Assembly (NCBI GenBank): GCA_947504205.1
Contig: CANNGL010000002.1
Coordinates: forward strand, 1-64,000
From: an uncultured Litoreibacter sp.
GTDB taxonomy: Bacteria > Pseudomonadota > Alphaproteobacteria > Rhodobacterales > Rhodobacteraceae
Length of the DNA stretch: 64,000 nt
Direction: 5' to 3'
A program made the translations under genes and the position numbers. Positions 43,164 to 64,000 of this stretch are shown here, piece by piece. Below the pieces are notes generated by a model that saw only the letters and a program-made list of their open reading frames with translations, was not told the DNA's origin and did not search any database. The stretch's first letter is position 1. Each line of letters opens with the position of its first letter.

Positions 43164-43547
43164 TCAGATCACAAGCAATGTTAAGATGGTCAGCACGAAA
43201 GAGCCGCCGATCAGCCCATAGGCCAGCTTCTCCGCCGTCTCCAGTTCGAGACCTCGACCGCTGTCCCAATAGAGATGTCGCAGCCCGGCCAGCAGGTGAT
43301 ACCAGACGGCCCAAAGCGACAATGTCATGACGATGTCACCAAACCACGACGTGATCACAGCATTCGCGGTTTCGAAATATGCCTCACTGTAGCTTGCCGC
43401 CAGAAACCACCAGACCACCAGCAAAGCCGATACCAGCAGAGCGTTTCCGGTGATCCGTGTGAAGATCGACGTCATGGAAGTGAATTGCGGACGATAGATC
43501 GACAAGTGCGGCGACAGCGGGCGATTGCCCCGGTTCACATCAGCCAT
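43164..43547 (-). CDS. sdhC: Succinate dehydrogenase cytochrome b556 subunit
   Basis: NRPLSPHLSIYRPQFTSMTSIFTRITG..HLLAGLRHLYWDSG. Confidence 0.96.
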   Translation of the reverse strand: MADVNRGNRPLSPHLSIYRPQFTSMTSIFTRITGNALLVSALLVVWWFLAASYSEAYFETANAVITSWFGDIVMTLSLWAVWYHLLAGLRHLYWDSGRGLELETAEKLAYGLIGGSFVLTILTLLVI

Positions 43548-43675
43548 ATGAGGTCCTTCGTGTTGGCATAGCTTTGTTTTCTTTCATTTATGCCGTGAAG
43601 CTAGGGCAGATGTCACGCCATGACAGCGCAAACATCCGCGATGAATTGGCACATTTAGATCAATTCTATGAATTA

Positions 43676-43706
43676 AGTGATCACTAGACCATAGGCGTGA
43701 TCACAA
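43676..43706 (-). promoter_or_regulatory. Twin GTGATCAC operator upstream of sdhCDAB
   Basis: In gene orientation TTGTGATCAC-gcctatggtcta-GTGATCACT; dyad centres 20 bp apart. Confidence 0.75.
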
Positions 43707-52016: not shown

Positions 52017-52066
52017 CCCGGTTTTGATCCTGTGACCCGCCAGTGAGGCGAATCGCTATCGCGTAG

Positions 52067-52100
52067 AAAACCCTCGGAAATCTCTATTTCCGAGGGTTTT
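52067..52100 (+). terminator. Strong intrinsic terminator
   Basis: AAAACCCTCGGAAA tctcta TTTCCGAGGGTTTTT, perfect 14-bp stem. Confidence 0.93.
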
Positions 52101-52106
52101 TGAATA

Positions 52107-52138
52107 TTGTGATCACACTAAATTTCATGTGATCACAA
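52107..52138 (+). promoter_or_regulatory. Twin GTGATCAC operator upstream of sucC
   Basis: TTGTGATCAC-actaaatttcat-GTGATCACAA; dyad centres 20 bp apart; same spacing as at sdhC. Confidence 0.78.
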
Positions 52139-52235
52139 ATGTCGGAATTCTTGATGTATTCGAAAAAAGTAAGTTTCCTTAGTCCCTCGACAGTGGCTTA
52201 GCTTGCCAGAACAGCATTTTACCGGAGGCCATCCC

Positions 52236-53429
52236 ATGAATATCCACGAATATCAGGCAAAGGCGCTGTTGCGCCAATATGGGGCGCCTGTCTCCGATGG
52301 ACGCGTTGTTCTGCGGGCCGAAGAAGCCAAAACCGCTGCGGGTGAACTTGATGGACCTCTCTGGGTGGTCAAAGCGCAAATTCATGCAGGCGGACGTGGT
52401 AAAGGCACATTCAAGGAAACCGATGCAGGCGAAGCCGGCGGCGTGCGTCTGGCCAAATCTGTCGAGGAAGCCGCGACCGAGGCAAAGAAAATGCTTGGCC
52501 GCACATTGGTGACGAAACAGACCGGAGATAGCGGCAAACAGGTCAACCGCATCTATATCGAAGACGGTGCTGGCATCGAAACCGAGATGTATCTGGCCAT
52601 TCTGGTCGACCGCCAAACCTCCCGCGTATCGTTTGTCTGCTCGACAGAGGGCGGCATGGATATCGAAGAGGTTGCCGAAAAGACCCCTGAGAAAATTCTG
52701 AGCTTCTCCGTGGATCCGGCCACGGGGTACCAAGCCTATCACGGCCGCCGCATCGCATTTAATCTGGGTCTGAGCGGCAAGCAGGTAAAGCAATGCGTCG
52801 GCCTCATGGGCACGCTCTACAAGCTGTTTGTCGAAAAAGACTGCGAGATGCTGGAGATCAATCCGCTGATCGTGACCGACGAGGGCGACCTGAAATGCCT
52901 CGATGCCAAAATGGGCTTCGACAGTAACGCGGTCTATCGCCATGCCGATATCGCAGCCCTGCGCGACGAGACAGAAGAAGACCCCAAGGAATTGGCGGCT
53001 TCAAAATATGACCTCAACTACATCGCCCTCGATGGTGAGATTGGCTGCATGGTCAATGGCGCTGGTCTGGCAATGGCCACCATGGACATCATCAAACTCT
53101 ATGGCTCCGAGCCTGCAAACTTCCTCGACGTCGGCGGTGGCGCCACCAAGGAGAAGGTCACCGAAGCTTTCAAGATCATCACCTCCGACCCGAACGTCAA
53201 AGGCATTCTGGTCAACATTTTCGGCGGCATCATGCGCTGCGACGTGATTGCCGAAGGCGTGGTATCCGCCGTGAAGGAAGTGGGGCTGCAAGTGCCGCTC
53301 GTTGTCCGGCTGGAAGGCACCAATGTCGAAGAAGGCAAGAAGATCATCAATGAAAGCGACGTCGACGTGATCGCCGCGGATGACCTCAAAGACGGGGCCG
53401 AGAAGATTGTGAAAGCTGTTAAGGGGTAA
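52236..53429 (+). CDS. sucC: Succinyl-CoA synthetase beta subunit
   Basis: [42 protein letters not shown]. Confidence 0.99.
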
Positions 53430-53522: not shown

Positions 53523-54086
53523 GTGATCCGCGCAACTCTCATATCGCTTGGTCTTCTGACCAGCCCTCTGGCCGCTCAGCAATCCTATGACTTCGATCGG
53601 CATTTTGCGCTGTTCAATGAGTTCTGCGGAGCTGCGATGAAAGGGCTTGAACCCCTTAAAGCCGTGACACAGGTGCCCGGTCCGTCTGGGGAACGGGTCT
53701 TTGCGGTCTCGCCTGATGGCAATCTGATCACCTACCAGACCGGACGCGATGATTTTCTGATCATTGGATCGTTTCGCTATCAACCGGGTTTCGTAATCCG
53801 GGAATGCATGGTGCAGCAGATCGGCGCCAGCGTTCAAAAGCTGGATGAGATCGAGGCCGAGTTTCTGGCGCGTGCACCATCGGGCGACGGTATAAGCGCA
53901 ACCGGTGGACGCGTCGTCGAAGACATTCCCCCCGTCGGCGCCTTCGCTGTAAGCGGCGGAATGATCACCCGGCCACGCGCCTCCTACGTGATCTACGGCG
54001 CGATGGAACCTCAGGGCACAATCATGCAGTCCCACCTTGCGGATGGCATGTTCACCCTCAACGCCTTCGTGTTGGCCGCCCGATGA
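53523..54086 (+). CDS. Secreted hypothetical protein in suc operon
   Basis: 187 aa, N-terminal signal peptide; overlaps next gene by 4 nt. Confidence 0.75.
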   Translation: MIRATLISLGLLTSPLAAQQSYDFDRHFALFNEFCGAAMKGLEPLKAVTQVPGPSGERVFAVSPDGNLITYQTGRDDFLIIGSFRYQPGFVIRECMVQQIGASVQKLDEIEAEFLARAPSGDGISATGGRVVEDIPPVGAFAVSGGMITRPRASYVIYGAMEPQGTIMQSHLADGMFTLNAFVLAAR

Positions 54087-54631
54087 TCGGACGCGCTGCA
54101 TATCTCGCCCTCGGGTTTGGCCTTGTGGGGCAAGCGGCGGGCGCGCAGGCGCCACTCGATATGGCGGCTGCCAACATGCAACTCGCAATGCAGATCTGCC
54201 TGCAGAATTACGGCACACCCGATCAGATGGTCCCAAGCTTCAAGCAGGCCGGCTTTACCGAACGGGTCGAGGATTTCGGCGGCGGAAACATCATCCACTG
54301 GATGTCCGACCCTGCCCAGACCACGCTAGTCAATGTTCAGCCCGGTACGGAGCGCAGCTTTTGTGCCGTCAGCACGGAACTGTTCGGCGTCACGGCGGCA
54401 ATTCCCTACACAAAGCAGGTTTTGGGAAACATCTATCAGGGCGAAGTCTTCGAGGGTGGTCTGGAAGGCGGCGCGATTGTCCGCCCCGGCACACCCGCTG
54501 CGAACAATCAGCCCTGTTCGGGCTACAGTTTCATAGCGCCCCGCCGCCCGGTGCAGATCGATATCGGCAATGCCGGTCAGGATCCCCTCTGCATTGAAGA
54601 CGGCACCGTTCAGATCATGATGCGCATGTGA
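54083..54631 (+). CDS. Secreted hypothetical protein in suc operon
   Basis: 182 aa, signal peptide MIGRAAYLALGFGLVGQAAGAQA. Confidence 0.75.
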   Translation: MIGRAAYLALGFGLVGQAAGAQAPLDMAAANMQLAMQICLQNYGTPDQMVPSFKQAGFTERVEDFGGGNIIHWMSDPAQTTLVNVQPGTERSFCAVSTELFGVTAAIPYTKQVLGNIYQGEVFEGGLEGGAIVRPGTPAANNQPCSGYSFIAPRRPVQIDIGNAGQDPLCIEDGTVQIMMRM

Positions 54632-55440
54632 TGATGGCGGAAACCACATATCGCGACTGCCCCGCCTGTGAGGCCAGTCAGGCCAGCCTGATTGCAGAAT
54701 ACTCACCCGATGACTGGCAGGTCAGCAGCTGTGAGACATGCGACTTTGTCTATCTCAAAAATCCTCCGGCATACGAAGCTCTGGAAGAGGATTTTGCCTG
54801 GGAAAAAACCTATGTGGAGAAGCGCGAAAAGACGCGCGGATCCACGGCCTTCTCGCCGCTGCAACGCGCAGTGCGTAAAAAGACCCGGCTCTTCACGCGG
54901 GACAGATCCCAGAAGATGCGCGGCTGGTTCAGCGATGGTCATGTGCTGGATGTGGGTTGCGGCAATGGCGGGCGCATCCCCGAACCGATGGTACCCTATG
55001 GGATCGAGCTGTCACGCCAGCTACATGCCCACGCGGACGCCTATATGCGATCGCGCGGCGGATACTGTGCGTTCGGCCCCGGGGCTGAGGCGATCTGGGA
55101 TTTTGACGAAGGTCAGTTCGACGGCATCATCATGAATTCCTATCTGGAACATGAGACGGCCGTGATGAAAGTTCTGAAAGGGGCCGCGCGCTGCCTGAAA
55201 CCAGATGGCGCGATCTATATCCGCGTTCCAAATTTCGGATCGCTCAACCGCAAGCTGATCGGCAAGACATGGTGTGGCTTCCGCTATCCTGATCATGTCA
55301 ATTACTTCACCCTGACGTCTCTGCGCCAAGTCGCAGCGGCAGCAGGGTTCACCCTGTCGGTGGTCAATCCAGTGACCCTACCGATCGACGACAATATCAA
55401 CGCGTTGCTGCGAAAACGCGACCATCAAGGAAGAGCTTAG
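54631..55440 (+). CDS. Class I SAM-dependent methyltransferase with N-terminal Cys motif
   Basis: CPACEASQASL..CETCDFVYLKNPP; HVLDVGCGNGG; stop directly abuts sucD ATG. Confidence 0.88.
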   Translation: MMAETTYRDCPACEASQASLIAEYSPDDWQVSSCETCDFVYLKNPPAYEALEEDFAWEKTYVEKREKTRGSTAFSPLQRAVRKKTRLFTRDRSQKMRGWFSDGHVLDVGCGNGGRIPEPMVPYGIELSRQLHAHADAYMRSRGGYCAFGPGAEAIWDFDEGQFDGIIMNSYLEHETAVMKVLKGAARCLKPDGAIYIRVPNFGSLNRKLIGKTWCGFRYPDHVNYFTLTSLRQVAAAAGFTLSVVNPVTLPIDDNINALLRKRDHQGRA

Positions 55441-63383: not shown

Positions 63384-64000
63384 ATGTCTAGCTACGACGT
63401 CATCGTGATCGGTTCTGGCCCGGGGGGCTATGTCTGCGCAATCCGCTGCGCTCAACTGGGTCTGAAAACCGCTTGTGTCGAAGGCCGCGAAACGCTTGGT
63501 GGCACATGTCTGAACGTCGGCTGCATCCCTTCCAAAGCACTGCTGCACGCCTCCCACATGCTGCATGAAGCCGAGCATAATTTTGCCGCGATGGGCCTGA
63601 AGGGCAAAAGCCCTTCAGTCGATTGGCCAGCGATGCTGGACTACAAGTCCAAAACGATCGGTCAGAATACGCAAGGCATTGAATTTCTTTTCAAAAAGAA
63701 CAAGATCGACTGGATCAAAGGATGGGCTTCAATCCCTGAAGCGGGCAAGGTCAAAGTTGGCGATGAGGTTCATGAAGCAAAGAATATCGTCATCGCCTCA
63801 GGCTCCGAAGTGGCAACTCTCCCCGGCGTCGAGATCGATGAGAAAGTCGTCGTCTCCTCTACCGGCGCGCTTGAGTTGGGCAAGGTACCAAAGAAGCTGG
63901 TCGTGATCGGCGCAGGCGTGATCGGGCTGGAGCTTGGCAGCGTCTACAAGCGCCTTGGATCAGAGGTAAAGGTGATCGAGTTCCTGGACCACATCACCCC
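63384..64000 (+). CDS. lpdA: Dihydrolipoyl dehydrogenase (partial, runs off window)
   Basis: [60 protein letters not shown]; absent from the ORF track because no stop is reached. Confidence 0.96.

Follow-up and report, generated by a model that had tools for sequence, protein, structure and literature searches.

The closest described counterpart of the system considered here is AkgR of Rhodobacter sphaeroides. Direct activation of TCA-cycle genes by AkgR has reportedly been established by Imam et al. in 2015 (mBio), and we take the AkgR of that study to be RSP_0981. This protein was predicted to control succinyl-CoA synthetase, succinate dehydrogenase and 2-oxoglutarate dehydrogenase, that is, sucCD, sdh and sucAB (PMC4344238), and GTGATCAC is given among the binding sites of AkgR, which is called a transcriptional activator (PMC6365646). 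The AkgR regulator, the GTGATCAC motif and the target genes are already known in one species. Here we describe two pairs of GTGATCAC dyads in the window, one preceding sucC and the other sdhC; by the window we mean the whole stretch of 64,000 nucleotides analysed. Judged by the DNA of this genome and its relatives, the two pairs are highly likely to be the operators of this bacterium's AkgR ortholog, a GntR-family protein of the FCD subfamily that is encoded right after lpd.

Two operator pairs and their surroundings

The twin operator on the sucC side (52107..52138, plus strand) reads TTGTGATCAC-N12-GTGATCACAA, its upstream and gene-proximal GTGATCAC dyads, assigned to neither strand, lying at 52109..52116 and 52129..52136. 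It stands 99 bp from the ATG (52236) of sucC (52236..53429, plus strand; NF001913), the first gene of a sucC..sucD..sucA-sucB..lpd cluster. Its partner on the sdhC side (43675..43706, minus strand) reads TTGTGATCAC-N12-GTGATCACTT, with the upstream dyad at 43697..43704 and the gene-proximal dyad at 43677..43684 (likewise unstranded). This pair starts 3 bp after the stop of a DUF1194 gene, and a distance of 129 bp separates it from the ATG (43547) of sdhC (43167..43547, minus strand; TIGR02970), which opens the sdhCDAB operon (sdhB end, 39556). The first-pass annotation had reported twin GTGATCAC palindromes with centres 20 bp apart at both genes, and this description holds for each pair. The window contains a fifth GTGATCAC, unpaired, at 43351 within the sdhC/D coding sequence.

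Directly 5' of the sucC pair and 3' of the preceding gene, a strong hairpin, formed by the inverted arms AAAACCCTCGGAAAT / ATTTCCGAGGGTTTT and accompanied by a T-run, occupies 52066-52100 and is probably the terminator of that gene. Immediately after the sucC proximal dyad (52137-52150), AAATGTCG followed by a T-rich run is seen in most relatives (L091-L120); the sdhC side does not share this element. Further downstream, two genes (54083-55440), including a predicted methyltransferase (PF13489), separate sucC from sucD, unlike the arrangement in G051, a probable C. sphaeroides, where sucC and sucD adjoin each other.

A whole-genome pattern search for exact GTGATCAC-N12-GTGATCAC returned two matches in 3,787,198 bases, at sucC and sdhC only, as against the roughly 0.003 pairs at exactly 20 bp expected by chance from the 111 single GTGATCAC sites of the genome, and the reversed-pattern control pair gave no match in the whole genome. 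For single sites the reversed pattern has little value as a control, because CACTAGTG includes the rare CTAG, and these were compared with the dinucleotide-shuffled window instead. The genome has eight copies of the 10-mer TGTGATCACA, of which sucC accounts for two, the regulator gene for one and the interior of unrelated coding sequences for five, and a relaxed pair (KTGATCA-N14-TGATCAM) adds one locus, C1:3075, with TTGATCAA cores.

Conservation in the Rhodobacteraceae

Relatives were sampled as 150 Rhodobacteraceae genomes, one per genus, and upstream regions were compared for the best 30 matches each to sucC, sdhC and the regulator gene. Among these best 30, the exact pair stands upstream of sucC in 30/30 and of sdhC in 29/30, and its distance to the sucC start codon is near-constant. 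When either N12 or N13 is allowed, at least one pair is found in 133 of the 150 genera, mostly exactly two per genome, while the reversed pattern has zero matches across the 150 family genomes. In the related upstream regions the dyads are spaced 21 bp from start to start in 49 of 59 pairs and 20 bp in the other 10, such that the 20 bp found in this genome is the minority form and 21 bp the usual one. The spacers vary between relatives and are AT-rich in the middle (70%), and the outer flanks are T-rich on the 5' side and A-rich on the 3' side, giving TTGTGATCAC...GTGATCACAAA. Of the two outcomes that the first-pass annotation named as refuting its proposal, a chance frequency of the pair genome-wide and a lack of conservation upstream of orthologous genes, neither was observed; its point that half-sites and spacing rather than spacers are conserved is borne out, with the refinement that 20 and 21 bp both occur.

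A third GTGATCAC lies 56-265 bp upstream of the sdhC pair in 8 of the 30 related regions (L122, L127, L129, L131, L139, L141, L142 and L145). Most of 80 named loci had no exact pair, chiefly because sucC and sdhC often fell outside the 10 kb flanks searched. In a class-wide sample two pairs were found in 4/4 family members and one pair in 2/285 other genomes, and the paired arrangement is therefore a Rhodobacteraceae trait.

The regulator gene and its identity

Within the window, lpd (63384..64000, plus strand) is cut by the window end; its stop lies at contig position 64772. Only 35 bp past that stop, and 0.8 kb beyond the window edge, the contig carries an akgR-like regulator gene (64807-65472, minus strand) whose product of 221 residues contains PF00392 (GntR winged-helix) and PF07729 (FCD effector domain), both above cut-off. 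The absence of a regulator next to the sites, as stated in the first-pass annotation, holds inside the window but does not extend past its edge, where the GntR/FCD gene directly follows lpd. A GTGATCAC site is situated at contig 65483-65490, 10 bases 5' of the regulator start codon, and a single dyad is found 5' of the regulator gene in 24 of its 30 best relatives, nearly always 18-50 bp before the match start.

Counting a regulator ortholog as present at E below 1e-80, regulator and pairs occur together in 129 of the 150 genera, the regulator only in 3, the pairs only in 4 and neither in 14 (Fisher p = 1e-13, in a test that assumes independence among genera, an assumption that related genera violate); with the sample restricted to genomes of 90% completeness or more, the counts become 118/2/2/11 (p = 1.6e-12). 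The four genera with pairs and no high-scoring regulator match are G019 and G115, whose genomes are fragmented, G097, whose genome is incomplete, and G033, in which a 48% regulator homolog adjoins sucC. Of the three with a regulator and no exact pairs (G040, G061 and G148), G040 has one-mismatch pairs at both sucC and sdhC, whereas in G061 and G148 neither sucC nor sdhC was matched. For 12 genera without the regulator, the sequences upstream of both genes contained no recognisable pair, the best candidates differing at 3 to 6 of 16 bases and lying away from the usual position. In the class sample, close orthologs (>60%) are limited to the Rhodobacteraceae, as are the pairs, regulator homologs outside the family being only 33-38% identical. 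By this shared distribution, and not by its adjacency alone, the GntR/FCD gene is identified as the regulator. The first-pass suggestion of a dedicated TCA-cycle regulator serving both operons is supported by this co-occurrence, by the match of the gene to AkgR and by the confinement of the pairs to sucC and sdhC.

The link to AkgR runs through one of the sampled genomes, G051, whose protein (C4:2739669-2740283) is the reciprocal best match of the regulator of the genome studied here (73%). Cereibacter (Rhodobacter) sphaeroides is the very probable identity of G051, because the gene order of G051 (sucC, mdh, five genes, sdhC-sdhD-sdhA-x-sdhB, then the regulator on the opposite strand) fits RSP_0966-0981, the R. 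sphaeroides locus numbers being 0967 for sucC, 0968 for mdh, 0974-0976 for sdh and 0981 for AkgR (PMC4344238); a Cereibacter ovatus protein 94% identical to the G051 regulator also supports the assignment. The sites described here match the published AkgR motif exactly (GTGATCAC, as quoted in PMC6365646), and the targets fit as well, with pairs at sucC and sdhC only, as in the predicted regulon (PMC4344238).

His146 and His189 of the FCD domain are invariant among AkgR orthologs. In this domain (L040:2308-2973) AkgR orthologs have Asn142, and at position 214 Gln (His here). In metal-binding FCD proteins, Asp is typical where AkgR orthologs have Asn142, and residue 214 is also a usual metal ligand. 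Two of the usual ligands thus look altered, and ligand sensing by AkgR may differ from that of the metal-binding proteins. By sequence, the closest solved relative is E. coli McbR (4p9f).

A model for AkgR action and its alternatives

Each GTGATCAC dyad would most likely be bound by one AkgR dimer, and with 20 or 21 bp between dyad centres, that is, two helical turns, both dimers would sit on the same face of the helix, where they could bind cooperatively. That the spacing is fixed at 20 or 21 bp while the spacers vary fits such a placement of two dimers on one helix face. A probable sdhC core promoter is found at 43586..43616 on the minus strand (-35-like GTGACA at 43616-43611, -10-like CATAAA/ATAAAT at 43592-43586), and related sequences aligned upstream of sdhC share GTGACA and TAT-A boxes, roughly 60 and 85 bp past the proximal dyad in the direction of the gene. 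Upstream of sucC, scans for a consensus promoter and terminator found nothing, and no core promoter was placed with confidence. Because the pair lies upstream of the sdhCDAB core promoter and in an equivalent position at sucC, AkgR probably acts from it as an activator of both sdhCDAB and the suc operon in this species as well. The single dyad overlapping the akgR start would in turn probably serve autoregulation.

Two other readings of the pairs deserve to be weighed against operators for AkgR. The pairs might belong to another regulator, either a GntR paralogue or a CRP/FNR-type protein reading TGTGA/TCACA half-sites, with the akgR-like gene a mere neighbour. Some 20 further GntR-type genes are indeed present in the genome, and TGTGATCACA includes the CRP-like half-sites TGTGA and TCACA, but CRP half-sites are 6 bp apart, whereas here the halves abut without a gap in every genome and at all sites, matching neither TGTGA-N6-TCACA nor the alternative TTGAT-N4-ATCAA. 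Moreover, the regulator and the pairs come and go together across genera, the same site is present at the regulator gene itself, and the R. sphaeroides counterpart has been tied by others to the same genes and motif (PMC4344238, PMC6365646). We thus regard a different regulator as very unlikely.

Hardly credible, in our judgement, is that the repeats form a hairpin in a leader RNA (an attenuator or a riboswitch), the copies of the palindrome pairing with each other. RNA of 52055-52145 does fold such that both dyads form an 11-bp stem, yet a stem of this kind arises from any palindrome that is present twice. At sdhC the -35/-10-like boxes are located downstream of the pair, which is then probably not transcribed from that promoter; in addition, the dyads are kept letter for letter without compensating changes, and the loop of a hairpin would not need a spacing constrained to 20-21 bp. 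On these grounds the RNA reading was rejected.

Returning to AkgR, we lean towards a minimal TCA-cycle switch common to the Rhodobacteraceae, in which two dimers would bind cooperatively to a two-turn pair almost exclusive to sucC and sdhC, a single dyad would provide autoregulation, and regulator and operators would be inherited or lost together. A strikingly conserved operator pair now has a named regulator, and in a family very abundant in marine and soil habitats two TCA-cycle operons appear to be controlled together by a circuit to which hardly any other gene belongs. Both cooperativity and the physiological role become directly testable through the rule of 20 or 21 bp and through the genera that naturally lack the regulator. 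The surprise is limited, regulator, motif and targets having been reported earlier in one species; what is added here, and was not found described in the literature examined, is the pairing at two helical turns across the family, a near-exclusive regulon made up of two operons and the regulator itself, and the inheritance and loss of regulator and sites together.

Comparison with known systems

Among described regulators, CceR resembles the system presented here in that it, too, acts on sdh and on central carbon metabolism, in R. sphaeroides (PMC4344238, PMC11323563), but it is a LacI-family protein with the motif GTT-N6-8-AAC. E. coli NanR is GntR-type, and its operator is bound by several dimers (PMC8012715), a precedent for the arrangement proposed here; unlike AkgR, it is a repressor of sialic acid genes that acts on (GGTATA)3 repeats. 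For PS417_07240, the GntR-type regulator of a deoxyribonate cluster in Pseudomonas simiae, GTGATCAC itself was predicted (PMC6365646), but the protein is only 32% identical to AkgR and serves a local catabolic cluster, with a single palindrome reported. With AkgR of R. sphaeroides the likeness covers the GntR/FCD architecture and the predicted targets sucCD, sucAB and sdh (PMC4344238) as well as the GTGATCAC site and the activator role (PMC6365646). The self-site found here is without an exact counterpart in G051, and the regulator gene follows sdhB there and lpd here. Pairs nevertheless stand upstream of both sucC and sdhC in G051 as they do in this genome, with dyads spaced 21 bp there and 20 bp here.
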